From positions 1 to 64,000 of the forward strand of contig JBHIEG010000009.1 of the NCBI GenBank assembly GCA_046760505.1: a stretch of 64,000 bases of DNA, given 5' to 3'. The translations under genes were made by a program, and so were the position numbers. Every line of letters starts with the position of its first letter. Position 1 is the first letter of the stretch. This stretch comes from CAYFZR01 sp046760505 [NCBI: Candidatus Hydrothermarchaeota archaeon]. GTDB lineage: Archaea; CAYFZR01. The notes beneath the pieces are model-generated. The model did no database searches. It had not been told where the DNA came from and was given only the letters and a program-made list of their open reading frames with translations. Positions 11,792 through 52,570 of the stretch are shown piece by piece.

Positions 11792-13048
11792 TTACTGTCT
11801 ATAGGTAAGTATTCTAAGAATAACCGTTAAATTTGAAATAACCGCTATGACTAGCAGGGAGAGTAATATCTGATTGAAGATTCCACCAAGCATTATTAGA
11901 AAAAGCCTCATGTCTCTTCTCATAATCAGGAAAAAGTTAAATCTATCTTTCTTTTCTATTAAATCAGCCCTTGCTGCTGAATAACTTATCATAAGGGATC
12001 CGATAATAGCAAATAGACCGGCTAAGAGTGTTATATCGGAGAAATTTCCTAGGATCATTCCTAAAATAATGGCAAAGTCTGCATATCTATCAAGAATAGA
12101 ATCTAAGAAGGCGCCGAAATTACTTTGAAGATTCTTTAGCCTCGCTATTTCTCCATCACAACCATCCACGATAGATGCGATCTGAGTCAAAATTCCTGCC
12201 AAGAAGTTTAGGGTAAGAAAGAATAAGTAAGCAGGCATCAATGAAAATATAAAACTTATTATGGTTAGTTGGTTTGGATTTATGTTGTATCTAACCAGAA
12301 ATTTTGAAATTCTAGATGATATCTTTCTGTTTATATATTTAGAAACTGGACCGTCATCTTCCTTTACCAAAGAATTTTGTATGTAAATTTCTGCCTCCCT
12401 CAAGTCTTCTTCGGTATCTATGTCTTTCCAGTAAAAATTCTCTATTTTAATTGCTCTCAGTTCTTTTTCCTTTATCAGCTCTTTCATTACATCCGAAATT
12501 GTAAAAATTTCCTTTTCTTTCGCTACTGTTGTTGTTATGTCAAATATATATGGCTGGCAAATGAACAATCCAGTGTCAATGGCGTTCCATTTTTCTATAT
12601 TCTTTCCTATATCAAGAATAAAGTCCCCTTCAACATAAACCTTTGTTGCTTCTTCTTTTTCATTTATTTTTGAAACGAACAGAACGTTTTCTTTGTGTTT
12701 TTCTTTTAGAAAAGAGTATATGCTTCTTTCAAAGTAATGATCTCCCATACAAATTAAAAAAGGCTCGTTTATAAGATCTCTCGTGAGATGCAAAGAATAA
12801 CCATTTTCCCTCCAAGGATCTGGGTTATCAACATAAGTGATCTTTATTCCGAGTTTGCTTCCGTCTCCAAAGTAATCTTTTATGTTCTTCGAATCATCTG
12901 ATATTACGATAATGAATTCATCGATTGTTTCTCTAAGCGCTCTGAGTGTGTGTTCTAAAATAGGTAGTCCAAATAATCTTGCAAGCGGTTTCGGTACCTC
13001 GCCCTTAAACCTCTCGCCCTTGCCAGCAGCCAGTATAACTGCTTTCAA
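11792..13048 (-). CDS. Bifunctional inositol-1-phosphate cytidylyltransferase / DIPP synthase
   Basis: A 418-residue two-domain protein. Residues 1-215 are a nucleotidyltransferase (LAAGKGERFKG, then PKPLARLFG) that would make CDP-inositol. Residues ~235-418 are a membrane CDP-alcohol phosphotransferase with the full DG..AR...G..D...D signature (DGCDGEIAR, then FLDSILDRYAD) and several helices. The fused enzyme is known from Archaeoglobus and Thermococcales, where it makes phosphorylated di-myo-inositol phosphate, a heat and salt solute. It overlaps the inositol-phosphate synthase gene by four bases. Confidence 0.88.
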   Translation of the reverse strand: MKAVILAAGKGERFKGEVPKPLARLFGLPILEHTLRALRETIDEFIIVISDDSKNIKDYFGDGSKLGIKITYVDNPDPWRENGYSLHLTRDLINEPFLICMGDHYFERSIYSFLKEKHKENVLFVSKINEKEEATKVYVEGDFILDIGKNIEKWNAIDTGLFICQPYIFDITTTVAKEKEIFTISDVMKELIKEKELRAIKIENFYWKDIDTEEDLREAEIYIQNSLVKEDDGPVSKYINRKISSRISKFLVRYNINPNQLTIISFIFSLMPAYLFFLTLNFLAGILTQIASIVDGCDGEIARLKNLQSNFGAFLDSILDRYADFAIILGMILGNFSDITLLAGLFAIIGSLMISYSAARADLIEKKDRFNFFLIMRRDMRLFLIMLGGIFNQILLSLLVIAVISNLTVILRILTYRQ

Positions 13049-14274
13049 CCAAGGTCCCCGTATACGTACTCGAGAGGTTCTTCATATTTTAAATTGGTTT
13101 TTTTACTCGAGTTAACCCATTCAACAAGCTCCATAAACTGTTCATGAGTATTTACCTTTTTAGAGTCCATTGGGTCCTTGAAAAAGAATCCCATCTCCTT
13201 GATTACTCCATATTCGCCTCTGCGTTTCGCATACAACAATAGCCTTGCTATGTCTATGATGAGCGGTGCAGCGAGTATACAGTCTATGCCATCCCAGACA
13301 AACTGAAACTTCATTTTTGTGCCTAGAAAGCCCTTGAAATGTACGAAATCGAACGCAATTTTATTATCCACAAGGGAAGGAAATAGAGAGATCTCGCATA
13401 TGCTGTGAGGAGAGTAACCTAGTATCGCTTCCAATACACTGTCTTTTGTTATTATCTTGCTTGTCTTGTTGTCTTGATGATCAAGTACTTTACCGTCGTC
13501 ATCTCCTAAGATGTTAAAGCTCATCCAGCCTAGGATATCTAGGTTCCTGTAGAGAAACATAGGAACCAACGTGGTCTTGACAAGCGTTTCTCCTGTCTTT
13601 CCATCGTTCCCAGCGTGCGGAACTTTGTTTTCTAAAGCAAGTTTCTTTAATGCTGGCAAACTCGAACCAACACTAGGTGTAAAGTTTGCGTAGGGAATGC
13701 CGTTTTTTAATGCAGAATAAGCATATAGTGCGCTTGCTCTGATTTTTTCTTTTTTGTCCTCGTCCAACAATCTTTCGAAGTCGTCTGTCCTAATGTGATA
13801 CTCCGGATCAATTTCTAATGGAGGCTCGGTGGAAGCTATGTTTATTATTACCGTGTCCTTCTTCTTAAACTTCTTCATATCACTCGATAGTATGTCCACG
13901 ATCTCTCTAAGGGAGTAATCATCTTCAAGTCCGCATGTTTCTCCAAGCGCTTTAATTCCCTGACCGCAATTTAACGCTGTTCCTTTTTTTGCTCTTACCT
14001 CAGAGAGGTCTTCTTTGACTTCCTCGAGTATTTCCATGTCGTAGTGTCTGTTTTGGTTCCAGTGCATCAAAGATGCCTCGTAGGCATTAAATCCCAGGTT
14101 TCTTATTTCATGCCCACCAAATCGAAATTTCAGCGGAATTTTCTTTACGTTTGAGAACTGGGCTAATTCAGTAACCAAACCTGTTTTAGGTGCTATTCCC
14201 CTTTCAATTCCCTTTGCTCCTACCATCGTCGTGGTAGAGACTGCTCCATAAGCTCCTATCAACCATAGATCCAT
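13045..14274 (-). CDS. ino1: Myo-inositol-1-phosphate synthase
   Basis: A 409-residue NAD-dependent isomerase converting glucose 6-phosphate to inositol 1-phosphate. The N-terminal GAYGAVSTT nucleotide loop, the NFTPSVGSS segment and NDGKTGETLVKT are hallmark sequences. I chose the ATG preceded by GGTGGGG, which gives MDLWLIGAYG. The longer frame upstream lacks family similarity and lies in the divergent promoter. It feeds the downstream cytidylyltransferase/DIPP synthase and probably also the inositol lipid enzyme at 24.5 kb. Confidence 0.93.
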   Translation of the reverse strand: MDLWLIGAYGAVSTTTMVGAKGIERGIAPKTGLVTELAQFSNVKKIPLKFRFGGHEIRNLGFNAYEASLMHWNQNRHYDMEILEEVKEDLSEVRAKKGTALNCGQGIKALGETCGLEDDYSLREIVDILSSDMKKFKKKDTVIINIASTEPPLEIDPEYHIRTDDFERLLDEDKKEKIRASALYAYSALKNGIPYANFTPSVGSSLPALKKLALENKVPHAGNDGKTGETLVKTTLVPMFLYRNLDILGWMSFNILGDDDGKVLDHQDNKTSKIITKDSVLEAILGYSPHSICEISLFPSLVDNKIAFDFVHFKGFLGTKMKFQFVWDGIDCILAAPLIIDIARLLLYAKRRGEYGVIKEMGFFFKDPMDSKKVNTHEQFMELVEWVNSSKKTNLKYEEPLEYVYGDLG

Positions 14275-14363
14275 GTTCCCCACCCCTACCGTTATAAATT
14301 TAGAACGGTGTAAAAATTTATATTGAACTTTCTTATATAAATATTTCTTTGAGGAATGAAGAT

Positions 14364-14936
14364 ATGTTGGATGAATCAAAAGAGCCAAAACAGGAAAGAA
14401 TTAAGATATTAGAAAAGAAAGAGCAATATGAGGCTTTAAAAAACCCTACTAAGAAAAATATATTGAAAAAAATCTCAAAAAAGTCAAAAACGATAACAGA
14501 ATTGGCTAGAGAGTTAAAAATTCCAAAATCAGAAATAGCATATCATGTGAAGGGGCTTAGAAACAGTGGACTGATAAGACTGGAAAGAACAGAAGAAGAC
14601 AAAAAGGGACTCAGAAAAAAGTACTATCTTTCAACTGCCCAAGTTTTTTTAACCAACGATGATGCACCCCAGATAGTAAAGGACGATCTGATTGCCCAGG
14701 CAGAGCTTTTTGTTATTGGATATCTAGAAGGATTAAGGCATGTGAATAAGTTTGAAGAAGATATTTATGAAAAAATAAAAACAGAGGACCTTGCCGCAAG
14801 CGTGGTTAGGGAGTCTTTACTTCTGAGTAAAGAACCACTCGAAGCCAAGCCTACTGTACTCGCCTCATTGTTCCGGAAGGCTCTCCAAAAAATCATTTCT
14901 CGAGATGAGAAGATTTCATACTTACTGGATTTATAA
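14364..14936 (+). CDS. Winged-helix transcription regulator divergent from ino1
   Basis: A 190-residue regulator. Residues ~20-90 form an ArsR-like winged helix (LKNPTKKNILKKISK, ITELARELKIPKSEIAYHVKGL) with a charged wing. The C-terminal ~90 residues are helical and of unknown function. It is transcribed away from ino1 across about 90 bases holding both TATA elements, so it may control the inositol solute genes, for example in response to heat or salt. The ATG is preceded by GAGG; an earlier TTG is less likely. Confidence 0.75.
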   Translation: MLDESKEPKQERIKILEKKEQYEALKNPTKKNILKKISKKSKTITELARELKIPKSEIAYHVKGLRNSGLIRLERTEEDKKGLRKKYYLSTAQVFLTNDDAPQIVKDDLIAQAELFVIGYLEGLRHVNKFEEDIYEKIKTEDLAASVVRESLLLSKEPLEAKPTVLASLFRKALQKIISRDEKISYLLDL

Positions 14937-29054: not shown

Positions 29055-30128
29055 ATGGAGGTAATTTGTTCAGGATGCAGTTGCTTGTGCGACGACATTG
29101 AAATAAAAGGCACCGTCTTCTGGAATGCTTGCAGAAAAGGAACCGGGAGACTTAAGCCGGTAGAAGGAGAAACCGATGTTAAAAAAATAAATGAGGCGAT
29201 AGATCTCTTAAATTCTTCTAAAAAAATAGGAATCTACGGTGGTGCAAACCTGTCTAACGAAGGAATAAAAATCCTATTCGATCTAGCAGAAAACCTAGGA
29301 GCTATTTTTTGGAACAGAGATTTAATCCAAAGAAATTTGTTTTTGAAAGCGTACGAAGAATGGGAAATCGCAAAACTTGACGAAATAAAGGATTATGGAA
29401 GATTTATTATGTGCTGGGGATCGGATAACATGAACACTCATCCAAGGCTTTTGAGCAGGTACATTTACTTTACTCATGGAGAAAAGACCCCAAAAGGCTA
29501 TGAAGACAGGATCTTAGTTCCAATAGACATCGAATTAACCCCAACAGCAGTTATTTCATTGCCATACTACGTCAAATTGAAGAAAGGAACCATATCTGAG
29601 ATAGAGAAAGCGGACAAAAAGGAGACTAAATTGGTTAAACATGCTCTAGAGAAGGCTGAACACAGGTATATTATAATTGGAGAGAGAATAATAGAAGAGG
29701 AAGACGAACTGGATAGGTTCATAAAAGAGTACGAAATGAAGGTTTTGCCCTTAGCGCATGGATTCAACCACTACTCATTGTTTGAAGAACTCTTGAAAAG
29801 AACAAAGAATATCTCTCCCTATGACTTTGAAAACAAAGAGATAGCTAAAGAGTACAAAGTTGATGTACTCTTGATTGTGGGGGGAAATCCTTTTGCAAAG
29901 GTGCCTGACTCGCAAGAATGGGCTGAAAAAATTATAACACTAGATCCTTTCAGATCATACACCGCGTTGAAATCAGAAGTCTGGATAAAGAGTGCACTTA
30001 ATGGAGTTTGTGTATCGACAAATGCAAAAAGAATGGATGGGGAGGATGTTTCCATAGAGGCATTGTATCAAGGAAAGTTGCTCTCTGATGAGGAGATTCT
30101 CAGGAGTATTTTGGAGGGAACCACATGA
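29055..30128 (+). CDS. FwdB-like molybdopterin protein lacking the active-site cysteine
   Basis: A 357-residue homologue of formylmethanofuran dehydrogenase subunit B, shorter than the usual ~430. The N-terminal cluster motif (CSGCSCLCDD, then NACRKG) and the segments MCWGSDNMNTHPRLLSRY and LIVGGNPFAK are conserved. The stretch that normally holds the Cys or SeCys ligand to W/Mo (a C-H-G-P motif between the 'GA' strand and the 'WG..P..HPR' motif) is here FWNRDLIQRN with no cysteine and no in-frame TGA. Activity is therefore doubtful or altered. It overlaps the FwdD-like gene by ATGA. Confidence 0.8.
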   Translation: MEVICSGCSCLCDDIEIKGTVFWNACRKGTGRLKPVEGETDVKKINEAIDLLNSSKKIGIYGGANLSNEGIKILFDLAENLGAIFWNRDLIQRNLFLKAYEEWEIAKLDEIKDYGRFIMCWGSDNMNTHPRLLSRYIYFTHGEKTPKGYEDRILVPIDIELTPTAVISLPYYVKLKKGTISEIEKADKKETKLVKHALEKAEHRYIIIGERIIEEEDELDRFIKEYEMKVLPLAHGFNHYSLFEELLKRTKNISPYDFENKEIAKEYKVDVLLIVGGNPFAKVPDSQEWAEKIITLDPFRSYTALKSEVWIKSALNGVCVSTNAKRMDGEDVSIEALYQGKLLSDEEILRSILEGTT

Positions 30129-30448
30129 GAATTAGCGTGTTTGTTGGAGATTATGTATTCCAAACTGCAAGGGACGCCTTGAGTAAAGATTACGTTGATT
30201 CCTCTGCCATATGTATATTAAGCGAAGAAACCGCAAAGAAATTAAATGTTAAAGGCGAAGATAGAGTTGAACTAAATATTAACGGAAAATCACTGGTTTT
30301 AAAGGTAAAGATAACTGAAAGAAAAGTAGATTATGCTTTTGTCCCGCTAAGCCCATGGATCGTGGATTTGGTAACGCAGGAACAGATAGAAAAAGGATTT
30401 ATTTCAGATATCCAAAAAACCACAAGGGAGATTGAGCCGTTACCTTAA
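30125..30448 (+). CDS. FwdD-like molybdopterin-dinucleotide-binding protein
   Basis: A 107-residue beta-barrel domain like FwdD/FmdD (AICILSEETAKKLNVKGEDRVELN, then VPLSPWIVDLVT). In the Fwd complex this piece binds the second half of the pterin cofactor. It overlaps the FwdB-like gene and ends the operon. FwdA, FwdC, FwdF and FwdG are not nearby. Confidence 0.8.
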   Translation: MRISVFVGDYVFQTARDALSKDYVDSSAICILSEETAKKLNVKGEDRVELNINGKSLVLKVKITERKVDYAFVPLSPWIVDLVTQEQIEKGFISDIQKTTREIEPLP

Positions 30449-31981: not shown

Positions 31982-32971
31982 TCAAGGACCTTCCATGTAG
32001 TCGTATAGGTCCCCATCAACTCTTTCCTCGTAGATTATATTCTTATCTTTGATTAATTCTATTCTGAATAGATTTGACTTGTACCATCTTTTGGTTGGCT
32101 CCGGGACTTCTTCAGAAACGCCTTCTCCCCTATATAATTTGGCAATCTCTGGATAAAGTTCGTACGTGCTGAAGTTTCTTCTTATATCGGTAACTACGAA
32201 TCCCATGTCCATTAAAGATTTTTCTACAAAATACCATCTTGAAAGAGGCGCATCTGTGAAGGTCATTGAGAAGTATCCGGAACCTTCCTCCTTTAAGCAT
32301 TCTAATCCTCTACATACAAACAAAGTTAGTGCAATCGCTGTATCAGGAGGATCTGTGGTAAAACAATCGAATTTATCTCTCAGATCTCTAGGAATCGGAT
32401 CTCTAAGGTCAAATCTAATGGTTTTAATTCCAAGTTCCTGATCGTTTATGAATTCCAATATCCTTTCGTCAATATCTATTGCTGTCACTTTCTTTGCCAA
32501 GCCAGTCATTGCAATCGCTATGCTTACAAGATCATCGTCTCCCAAAACGATGATGTTCTTTCCATCTATATCTCCATAGTTGAGCATGAATAAAACCCTT
32601 GCAATTGTGGAATCTGTAGTTATGAATGATTGATCGTATTCAGGCACGTTGTAAGGTCTGTTTCTAGAAATTTCCTCGAATTCTTTAAGAAAATCATCAT
32701 CGATTGCTATTCCTCTTCCATCACACTCTGGACAAACTTTATCTCCCACTTCTTTTACACCTAATTCTTCCGCAAAATTCTCTCCCTCTTTAGTAAGAGA
32801 GAATCTATAATTATTCTCGTCAACGTAACCATTTTTTCTAAGGATCTTGAGTGTTTTTGTTAGTTCTCGCATTGGTACTGCGGAAAATGAGGCAATCTCC
32901 CAAATATCCAAATCTTTTTTAAGCAGAGCCCTCAAAATTTCTCTAACATATCTCATTCTTGTTACTCCCAT
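31982..32971 (-). CDS. bpsA: Branched-chain polyamine synthase BpsA
   Basis: A 329-residue aminopropyltransferase making N4-bis(aminopropyl)spermidine, a polyamine of thermophilic archaea. An N-terminal winged helix precedes a CPECDGRG knuckle, the PEYDQ motif, the nucleotide loop LGDDDLVSIA, and TDPPDTA. The C-terminal acidic tail (EERVDGDLYDYMEG) is typical. The start is uncertain: ATG at 32971 is my choice, but GTG at 32989 overlaps the GGAGGTGA motif and ATG at 32956 is possible. Its presence supports a thermophilic host. Confidence 0.9.
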   Translation of the reverse strand: MGVTRMRYVREILRALLKKDLDIWEIASFSAVPMRELTKTLKILRKNGYVDENNYRFSLTKEGENFAEELGVKEVGDKVCPECDGRGIAIDDDFLKEFEEISRNRPYNVPEYDQSFITTDSTIARVLFMLNYGDIDGKNIIVLGDDDLVSIAIAMTGLAKKVTAIDIDERILEFINDQELGIKTIRFDLRDPIPRDLRDKFDCFTTDPPDTAIALTLFVCRGLECLKEEGSGYFSMTFTDAPLSRWYFVEKSLMDMGFVVTDIRRNFSTYELYPEIAKLYRGEGVSEEVPEPTKRWYKSNLFRIELIKDKNIIYEERVDGDLYDYMEGP

Positions 32972-33150
32972 CTCTCTTATCGTCTTCACCTCCGGTGTGA
33001 TAATTTAGCCTAGATTATTGCTTTTCGTTTTTGGTCGATAAAACTTATGGTGTATTTCAAGATTTAATCAAAAATGTAAAAAAAGTCTACAAGGTTTTTT
33101 AAGCAAAAAAAACATTTTGACACTTTCCTGTTAAGAATAGAGCCGAATAG

Positions 33151-33162
33151 AAAAGTTTATAT
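33151..33162 (+). promoter_or_regulatory. Strong TATA/BRE promoter for the structured RNA
   Basis: AAAAGTTTATAT is a textbook archaeal BRE plus TATA box. The RNA's terminal helix begins about 28 bases after the TATA core, the expected distance to a transcription start. No protein-coding gene starts downstream on this strand. Confidence 0.75.
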
Positions 33163-33185
33163 CTTTAAAGTTACACTTCATATTT

Positions 33186-33359
33186 GCCCCAAGCAGATCG
33201 GGAAAACTTGCGACGAGGTGAACCGCTCAGCATCGAGAATTCGATGTTGAACGGGGTGGTAGTTGCAAGAACGATACCACGATGCAAAGAACCAGTTGAA
33301 AAACTGGGGAAGGTGTCGGTGGCCAGTATCGAAGTACCGAGACTGCTTGGGGCTTTTTT
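33186..33359 (+). ncRNA. Novel-looking structured RNA: closed three-helix junction
   Basis: About 174 bases, GC-rich against the flanks, with no ORF. Helix P1 pairs 33186-33196 with 33343-33353 (11 perfect pairs) and continues 33198-33201 with 33337-33340. P2 pairs 33207-33214 with 33262-33269 and is capped by a 10-pair hairpin, 33227-33236 with 33241-33250. P3 pairs 33272-33277 with 33326-33331, then CAC/GTG, and is capped by a 6-pair hairpin with a GAAA tetraloop (33292-33307). A T6 tract follows P1, and a strong promoter precedes it. It is not 5S, tRNA or a recognisable RNase P or SRP RNA. Confidence 0.75.
33343..33359 (+). terminator. T-tract terminator at the end of the structured RNA
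   Basis: The 3' strand of helix P1 is followed at once by six T residues, matching archaeal U-tract termination and a helix-plus-T-run pattern. The convergent marker 4 gene ends 27 bases further on. Confidence 0.6.
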
Positions 33360-33385
33360 ATTGTTTCTTCTAACTTATTGATAGT

Positions 33386-34177
33386 TTAATTTTTCAAAGC
33401 ACTTGCAAGCGCAACAGCATTTTCGTAGTTTGGGCTTACTCTGGAGGTATCGACGAACACCCTGTCTATGTTTACTACTGGAGCGCCAAAGCCCTTTCCT
33501 CCCCCTAAAAGGACTAGGGTTCTGAAGATAAGGTTTCCTGTTATTCCATCTGGCACTATAATAATGTTAGCCTCTTTCACTGCATCTTCTATAAGTATTT
33601 CATAGTGCTTGCAATCCACCTTTTCTTTTAGTATGCTAGCCAGATATTCGCCTTCCATCAATGTTTTATCAACTCTTTCGTCTCTTCCCAAGTCCTGCTT
33701 CCTACCTCCAGATATTATACCAACCCTTGGCTTTATATCGATTTTTTTTGCAATCTCTGCTCCGAATTCCACGAATTCTAATTTCTCCAAAGGTGTTCTG
33801 CCTTCATCTATTCCGACCGGGGCAAGAAAAAAATATCTGTCCTTTGGAGTACCCAGCAAAGCCATTCTCAATATTTTCGGATAATATTTTTTAAGGAAAG
33901 ATAACGTATCGCTAGCGGGTAGAGACCCCCTCACTGCTCCCTCTACATCTCCCTTCATCAACAACTCTATCAGAGTCAAACATGGGTCATCGCTCACTAT
34001 AGTTTCGACAAGCCTAGATTTTTTTTGAGAAACCAAAACCACGTCAGCATATCCTTTTTCGATTGCGCTAATCGCCTTTTCTTCAGCTCTTTCAAAATAT
34101 CCTTTTTTTTCTGTTCCCGCTCCTAAGGCTATTCTAGCCTTATTCCTTTTTGCCATTTCGTATATTTTTTGGATCAT
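33386..34177 (-). CDS. Methanogenesis marker protein 4 (phosphotransacetylase-like)
   Basis: A 263-residue protein of the phosphate acetyl/butyryltransferase fold, with N-terminal [57 protein letters not shown], and a C-terminal [20 protein letters not shown] that corresponds to the family active-site region. It matches methanogenesis marker 4, whose function is unknown to me. It pairs with marker 2 at 19.3 kb. Next gene on the same strand is a PRTase, 17 bases upstream. Confidence 0.8.
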
Positions 34178-38461: not shown

Positions 38462-39307
38462 ATGGGTGATAATGACATTCCAGAGAGAATCAAGAGACTT
38501 TTGATCACATATGATGACTTGGTTAGTGAACTAAAAGAATTTTCTGGATTAAATTTAGATTTTTACCCTTCTTTGCCTAAAGATATTCCCGTAGTTCGCA
38601 TAGGAAACTCAAACAAAGTCATCATGTTTGTCGCGAGGATCCATGGAGACGAACCTACAGGCACAGAAGCGTGTAGGTGGTTTATCAGAAGTAAAGAGCC
38701 TAATGACTTTGCTTATGTCCTCTTTCCTCTAGTGAACACATACGGGTGTGAATATAACAAGAGAGAAAACATCCATAACATAGACATTACTCGAGATTTT
38801 ATGGTAAGCAAGGAGTTTGAAACACTTGCTTTAAAAAATGCGATAGAAAAATTTAAGCCAAGATTTATATTGGACCTACATAACACCAACTTTCTGACAC
38901 CCCTCTCGAAGAATCCAAGAGGATATCTTCAACCCGCTAACGACAATGAATCTATCAGGGCGGCATTGCAAATTAAGAGTTACCTAGATAAACACGGCTT
39001 ATCGAATCTTATTAGGAAAGATATGCTTCCAGAATGTTTTCTAAATCCAAAAGGAGGCAAACACACAAATTACAAGAAGATAGATGACGGTGTATTCGTG
39101 AGATATAAGGGTGAAACAGGTTTCAAGGAATACACAATGAAGTTGGGAATTCCCCATATATGCGTAGAATCTCCTGCTAAAACAAAGAATTTCTTCTTTA
39201 GAGAAAAGGAAGAAATAGAGAGATATGAAAAGAATTTCAAGAGCTATGTGAATTTCCATTATCTCAGCATGCTTGGTGTGATAGAATATCTCAAGGCAAG
39301 GAGGTAG
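38462..39307 (+). CDS. M14-type zinc carboxypeptidase / aspartoacylase-like deacylase
   Basis: A 281-residue metalloenzyme with the zinc motifs IHGDEPTGTE (His and Glu) and, about 70 residues on, LDLHN, as in succinylglutamate desuccinylase and aspartoacylase. A later ETGFKEYTM region could hold the general-base Glu. It removes an acyl or amino-acid group from a small substrate. The ATP-grasp gene starts four bases after its stop codon, with the ribosome binding site inside its last codons, implying coupled expression and a shared pathway. Confidence 0.75.
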   Translation: MGDNDIPERIKRLLITYDDLVSELKEFSGLNLDFYPSLPKDIPVVRIGNSNKVIMFVARIHGDEPTGTEACRWFIRSKEPNDFAYVLFPLVNTYGCEYNKRENIHNIDITRDFMVSKEFETLALKNAIEKFKPRFILDLHNTNFLTPLSKNPRGYLQPANDNESIRAALQIKSYLDKHGLSNLIRKDMLPECFLNPKGGKHTNYKKIDDGVFVRYKGETGFKEYTMKLGIPHICVESPAKTKNFFFREKEEIERYEKNFKSYVNFHYLSMLGVIEYLKARR

Positions 39308-52328: not shown

Positions 52329-52391
52329 TTGTATCTCCATGGAAGCTGCTATTTTTCTATAATTTTACCTTATGAATCATATGCAAGCAAC

Positions 52392-52423
52392 TATAAATAT
52401 TTTACCACCAATAAGTGGTGTTA
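52392..52423 (-). promoter_or_regulatory. Mirror-image promoter/operator, left arm (sulfur operon)
   Basis: Contains a TATA-like stretch (TATAAATATTTTA) and the dyad ACCAC-N6-GTGGT. It is the reverse complement of the right arm at 28 of 32 positions, with differences only in four central bases. It serves the leftward sulfur operon. Confidence 0.7.
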
Positions 52424-52480
52424 CTTTGAAATAAATAAATCCTAGAGATAGAGTGTAATAAGTCCAATAAATCTAAAATT

Positions 52481-52512
52481 TAACACCACTTTCCAGTGGT
52501 AAAATATTTATA
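52481..52512 (+). promoter_or_regulatory. Mirror-image promoter/operator, right arm (TrmB gene)
   Basis: Contains the dyad ACCACTTTCCAGTGGT followed by TATA-like AAAATATTTATA facing the TrmB gene. The dyad lies just upstream of the TATA box, where archaeal activators of this family can bind. The TrmB protein encoded downstream is the obvious candidate to bind both arms. Confidence 0.7.
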
Positions 52513-52570
52513 TAATTAGTAGGAGAATAGTACAAGCCTAGAGAAAGGTTAACAATCAACCGGTGGGAAA

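Follow-up and report, generated by a model that had tools for sequence, protein, structure and literature searches.

A candidate stand-alone RNA gene of no recognised family, with a predicted strand-asymmetric three-way-junction fold, between bpsA and an mtxX-like gene in an archaeal genome

An element of 168 nt at 33186-33353 on the + strand, lying between bpsA and an mtxX-like gene in the window (the whole 64-kb stretch of DNA that was analysed), is predicted to fold into a three-way junction and is probably a real stand-alone non-coding RNA (ncRNA) gene of some kind. Its fold, its strand preference, its outlier status within the window, the geometry of a promoter-like site and a T-tract, and the absence of a known family are supported by computation. 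On balance we favour a fuller reading, in which this stand-alone ncRNA gene would have its own promoter, would end at a T6 tract and would encode a structural, trans-acting RNA. By exclusion, a structural (RNP-scaffold-like) RNA is most likely, rather than an antisense RNA, a riboswitch or a guide. The element and its surroundings comprise the following features, all pairing being predicted.

31982-32989, - strand: bpsA (Pfam BpsA_C), divergent neighbour of the element
33150-33163, + strand: BRE/TATA-like element GAAAAGTTTATATC, TATA centre about 27 nt 5' of the first paired base
33186-33201, + strand: 5' strand of P1, with P1a (33186-33196, 11 bp) pairing with 33343-33353 and P1b (33198-33201, 4 bp) with 33337-33340
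33207-33269, + strand: arm P2, 8+3+10 bp, loop GAAU; layers P2a 33207-33214/33262-33269, P2b 33223-33225/33252-33254, P2c 33227-33236/33241-33250
33215-33222, + strand: GAGGTGAA in the P2 internal loop, Shine-Dalgarno-like, judged chance
33272-33331, + strand: arm P3, 5+3+6+6 bp, GAAA tetraloop; layers P3a 33272-33276/33327-33331, P3b 33277-33279/33320-33322, P3c 33280-33285/33313-33318, P3d 33292-33297/33302-33307
33337-33353, + strand: 3' strand of P1 (P1b and P1a)
33354-33359, + strand: T6 tract directly 3' of P1, predicted as the likely transcription end
33386-34177, - strand: phosphate acetyl/butyryltransferase-like gene (mtxX-like), convergent neighbour of the element, which we take, as did the original prediction, to be MtxX (methanogenesis marker 4)

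The predicted fold is well defined, with a pairing probability of at least 0.94 for 53 of the 56 helix pairs (0.87, 0.71 and 0.52 for the remaining three). The 11-bp inverted ends of the element (P1a) are perfect, the internal loop between P2a and P2b is purine-rich, and a second purine internal loop, AAAGAA/GGAAG, lies between P3c and P3d; tandem G-A pairs can be drawn in the latter, leaving an extra A-G unpaired, and no K-turn is claimed there. Purines account for 45 of the 50 unpaired bases (90%; 29 of them A), a share reached by none of 3000 shuffles, and the longest unpaired run in the minimum free energy (MFE) structure is 6 nt. This anatomy agrees in essence with the original prediction of a promoter, a three-way junction and a T-tract at this site: its 11+4 bp terminal helix is found at 33186-33201/33337-33353, and T6 adjoins P1 at 33354-33359. 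The junction itself stands, while the folded part measures 168 nt rather than the 174 bases proposed; P3 was rightly drawn with a GAAA-capped 6-bp hairpin, and has more layers than described.

The element is an outlier in both composition and stability. Its GC content of 0.536, as against 0.375 for the 64-kb window, is matched by no other 168-nt stretch when the window is sampled every 4 nt, which bears out the high GC that had been claimed. Its predicted MFE is -79.1 kcal/mol, compared with a mean of -45.7 and a lowest value of -62.8 among 3000 dinucleotide shuffles, none of which folds as low (z = -8.5; z = -8.7 with 200 shuffles). When the 64 kb were scanned on both strands (168-nt windows, step 12, a grid on which the exact element window falls), none of the 10,638 windows had a lower MFE or, after correction for GC, a more negative residual than the element, which also ranks first in a scan of intergenic sequence only (19 regions, 830 window-strand tests).

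A TATA/BRE-like sequence, GAAAAGTTTATAT, lies at 33150-33162. The usual distance from TATA to start in Archaea is about 25-27 nt; the site, which is promoter-like as had been predicted, lies at the right distance from the predicted RNA 5' end. The corresponding pattern, RAAANNTTTATAT, has three matches in 64 kb versus 0.58 expected, and three or more occur in one of 100 shuffles. A Gibbs motif sampler applied to 29 upstream regions of the 64-kb window recovered no TATA motif, and the promoter call therefore relies on the consensus general to Archaea.

Downstream on the + strand, the next open reading frame to reach 200 codons begins at 38462, and the element is therefore not the leader of a nearby same-strand gene, in line with the statement that no gene follows it on its strand. 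Frames of 60-105 codons do occur on the + strand between the element and 38462, and are taken as chance frames opposite - strand genes. No gene lies directly downstream on the + strand of the kind that a riboswitch or other cis-regulatory leader would control, and the lack of such a gene close by makes cis regulation less likely.

The fold is strongly strand-specific. The + strand of the element is more stable than the - strand by 14.8 kcal/mol, i.e., -8.8 kcal/mol per 100 nt, compared in Methanocaldococcus with -6.9 for the signal recognition particle (SRP) RNA, a mean of -6.2 for 29 pieces of rRNA and a mean of -3.5 for 22 tRNAs (18 of them negative). Within the 64-kb window, asymmetry of at least this size in either direction is found in 4.2% of 1596 background windows.

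The alternative that survives best, although unlikely, is a regulatory sRNA that pairs with mRNAs in the manner of sRNA162 of Methanosarcina mazei, which reportedly targets mRNAs through two domains. As with sRNAs of this type, the element is predicted to be a stand-alone RNA in a methanogen-related archaeon; its intergenic position, promoter-like site and T-tract would suit such a function, and GAGGUGAA within it could pair with sequences resembling the anti-Shine-Dalgarno (anti-SD). Unlike sRNA162, however, the element has almost no open sequence: unpaired runs in its MFE structure are 6 nt long at most, which makes regulation by base pairing less likely. The sequence GAGGTGAA in P2 is that of the bpsA ribosome site, but it was rejected as a Shine-Dalgarno decoy: 4.6% of 2000 shuffles contain GAGGUGA, and the strongest anti-SD duplex of the element falls in P3 rather than in the P2 loop, with a strength that 18% of shuffles equal. 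The target search behind these figures covered a few rRNA and anti-SD tests.

Less likely than an sRNA, and doubtful in its own right, is a housekeeping or guide RNA of a known family (H/ACA guide, RNase P RNA, SRP RNA or 5S) that has diverged very far. In SRP RNA and RNase P RNA a terminal helix closes the ends, as it does in the element, and the terminal helix together with the three-way junction recalls 5S. With archaeal SRP RNA the element further shares the strand-asymmetric fold; at 168 nt, however, it matches neither the SRP nor the RNase P covariance model, nor were the signature motifs of these RNAs seen in it by eye. In a positive control, which covers SRP only, Methanocaldococcus gave 257.9 bits with the SRP model. 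More generally, the Rfam 15 search that the original prediction had proposed gives no match at gathering score in the 64-kb window, and none on the element even when E values up to 10 are admitted over 32990-33400, where the sole match is TtnuCD8 at 33068-33120 on the - strand (19.9 bits, where the gathering score is 70). The claim that the RNA belongs to no recognised family is upheld by this search, and the wider claim of a stable ncRNA of no known family is partly supported, with Rfam, strand folding, purine loops, promoter-like site and T-tract in agreement.

HgcE, HgcF and HgcG were discovered, and named, as high-GC intergenic ncRNAs of AT-rich hyperthermophiles. Like them, the element is a GC-rich intergenic island in an AT-rich genome and has high fold stability. 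According to PMC4652768, these three RNAs are H/ACA guides with Rfam numbers, and archaeal H/ACA RNAs have a lower stem of 7-9 bp, 14-16 nt between the closing pair of the upper stem and the ACA box, and a K-turn or K-loop 8-11 bp above the pocket. An H/ACA identity was examined in detail because P2 lies within these limits, having an 8-bp lower stem and 15 nt from the upper-stem closing pair to position 85, dimensions that are weak evidence by themselves. Unlike HgcE, HgcF and HgcG, however, the element matches no such Rfam model and has neither box nor turn: after the lower stem of P2, the required place of an ACA/ANA box is occupied by AAC, and no K-turn or K-loop is present at the top of P2, whose upper stem consists of Watson-Crick and GU pairs with one C-A mismatch below the GAAU loop. 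The best rRNA target of the P2 pocket (in the rRNA operon of the distant Methanocaldococcus, not that of the host) is no better than that of 25% of 500 shuffled guides, which suggests chance targets; with the box and the turn lacking as well, an H/ACA guide was rejected. No description of the element was found in a search of open-licence papers on archaeal ncRNAs, including passages of PMC3124441, PMC4652768 and PMC2864571, which is weak evidence.

How far strong folding alone can be trusted was calibrated on 1.2 Mb of a Methanocaldococcus genome, in which 54 merged regions lie more than 0.16 above the mean GC; two long ones (>1500 nt, one being the rRNA operon) were left out of fold scoring. 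For ten of the remaining regions, in nine loci, the best z is no higher than -5.2. Three of the ten overlap an Rfam match (SRP RNA, tRNA-Sec and two tRNAs), and matches to flpD and CRISPR in the nine loci fall outside the strong-z regions. The other seven comprise four that share CCATAGGG...CCCTATTGG hairpins, which look like repeat clusters, and three that overlap frames of 96 to 156 codons. Since only three of the ten overlap an Rfam match, a strong z in an AT-rich archaeon is no proof of an ncRNA; weight was therefore placed on the strand and loop tests, and an origin as a mobile element was kept among the alternatives.

Such an origin, as a non-autonomous mobile or repeat (MITE-like) element with an 11-bp terminal inverted repeat, ranks below a divergent known family and has a slim chance of being correct. 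It would account for the perfect inverted ends, and hairpin-rich, repeat-like regions of Methanocaldococcus reach similarly strong z. The element nevertheless occurs as one copy within the 64 kb, is no simple hairpin, and has a promoter-like site at the right distance; apart from TTT in a T-rich flank, it shows no clear target duplication. Its strand asymmetry, moreover, is unlike that of four of the five GC-rich Methanocaldococcus regions labelled palindrome clusters (+1.6, -4.7, +0.1, +2.6 and +2.6 per 100 nt); the region at -4.7 (539386-539616) overlaps a 96-codon frame.

As an observation on the control genome in its own right, the four short-hairpin, GC-rich clusters carrying CCATAGGG...CCCTATTGG (Methanocaldococcus G006 C1, 13315-13566, 749869-750078, 916525-916797 and 921292-921501) combine very strong z with near-equal energy on both strands, and have no Rfam match at gathering score.

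Improbable, and placed after a mobile element, is a cis element of the - strand, for example a bpsA leader or the 3' terminus of the transcript from the mtxX-like gene. The element does sit between two - strand genes, and its - strand is also far better folded than its shuffles (z = -7.4); in one sub-window of the intergenic scan, 33190-33349, the - strand z (-6.9) is even lower than that of the + strand (-6.1). Against this, the + strand is better by 15 kcal/mol over the element, the promoter-like site and the T-tract are + strand features, and bpsA has its own TATA-like site near 33036-33046 (-), read by eye, between the element and the gene. Finally, a small protein gene is highly improbable: the statement that no ORF exists is not literally true, as a 65-codon TTG frame (33184-33381, +) is open across the element, but this frame has no Pfam match, its start codon lies 2 nt ahead of the predicted transcript start, and the extreme strand-specific folding speaks against it.

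Relatives of the element were sought with R1, a covariance model built from its single sequence that scores 210 bits on itself; the search sets overlap, and the filters were stricter in runs that covered more than 40 genomes. No credible homologue was found in 34 loci, 15 genomes, 237 genomes of one class and 11 loci, nor in 392 genomes of the Mnemosynella phylum drawn from a larger group (one match, 22.1 bits, E 0.125), 40 genomes (one match, 14.7 bits) or 56 loci (one 22-bit match). The 22.1-bit match in G246 (L155; 72% GC) and the 22-bit match in L124, a viral contig of 64% GC with a second match of 11.8 bits at the same locus, were judged chance, and the 14.7-bit match in G042 was rejected as a homologue. 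Exact-pattern searches of viral contigs returned 34, 1, 10, 0 and 4 stretches, numbers guessed to be near chance; R1 gave only the L124 match in the first 45 of these loci and none in the last 4. BLAST of plasmids and phages gave only short matches (E 0.6-0.7).

This lack of homologues says little on conservation of the RNA, because a single-sequence model overlooks relatives that have diverged and the protein searches brought up no close relative of the host. In the genomes searched, the best matches to its leucyl-tRNA synthetase (LeuRS) show about 50% identity, with 53-54% over part of the protein in two of them. At E 1e-270, LeuRS has no match in 36 genomes of the Methanocaldococcus phylum. 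A single-sequence search with BpsA found no relative, while a profile search gave identities of at most 41% (best 80 of 126 matches), and the mtxX-like protein reaches at most 55% among the matches listed. The host seems to be a deep lineage, as judged from the LeuRS identities.

Among the genes of the window are an inositol-phosphate synthase next to a fusion gene, genes resembling those of formylmethanofuran dehydrogenase, and one whose domains are those of the small subunit of the family-D polymerase; this content presumably indicates a thermophilic, methanogen-related euryarchaeon. At 11792-14388, inositol-1-phosphate synthase adjoins a nucleotidyltransferase-CDP-alcohol phosphatidyltransferase fusion, a pair that we take to be the signature of di-myo-inositol phosphate synthesis in hyperthermophiles. 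At 29055-30448, a short, divergent protein resembling formylmethanofuran-dehydrogenase subunit B (357 aa) is encoded, and the next gene has a weak match to molybdopterin-binding; the best solved relative is at E 1.1e-20.

For the preferred reading of a structural RNA, we infer transcription, stability in the cell, protein binding and action in trans. RNA polymerase would start at about 33186 under the element's own BRE/TATA promoter and would stop at the T6 tract. In the resulting transcript, about 170 nt long, P1 would lock the two ends. The RNA would then fold as a three-way junction with two long arms, leaving unpaired bases that are nearly all A or G, and would most likely act in trans as a stable, compact scaffold, probably the core of an RNP, to which proteins could bind via the purine-rich loops and the GAAA-capped arm. 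It is possible, and proposed here tentatively, that the element represents a class of structural RNA (RNP core or ribozyme-like) not recognised before, of which it would be the first member seen and which would occur only in thermophilic, methanogen-related archaea of a deep and poorly sampled lineage.

Archaeal structural RNAs are hallmarks of core processes (RNase P, SRP, guide RNAs), so that a new one would be worth having. With its extensive predicted structure and a host that has no close relative among the genomes searched, the element is a well-defined subject for covariation analysis as soon as sequences of relatives become available. Where homologues are lacking, the tests of strand asymmetry and loop purines provide a cheap means of sorting orphan RNA candidates from repeat hairpins.

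Two further features of the window fall outside the element. A Thioredoxin_3 domain is fused to a pyridine-nucleotide-disulphide oxidoreductase (thioredoxin-reductase-like) at 355-1965. The second strongest folded region of the window is an AT-rich inverted repeat at 52341-52570 with the short palindromes ACCACCAATAAGTGGT and ACCACTTTCCAGTGGT, located between divergent Thioredoxin_3/DsrH-like and TrmB-family regulator genes; these palindromes look like operators of the TrmB-family regulator.
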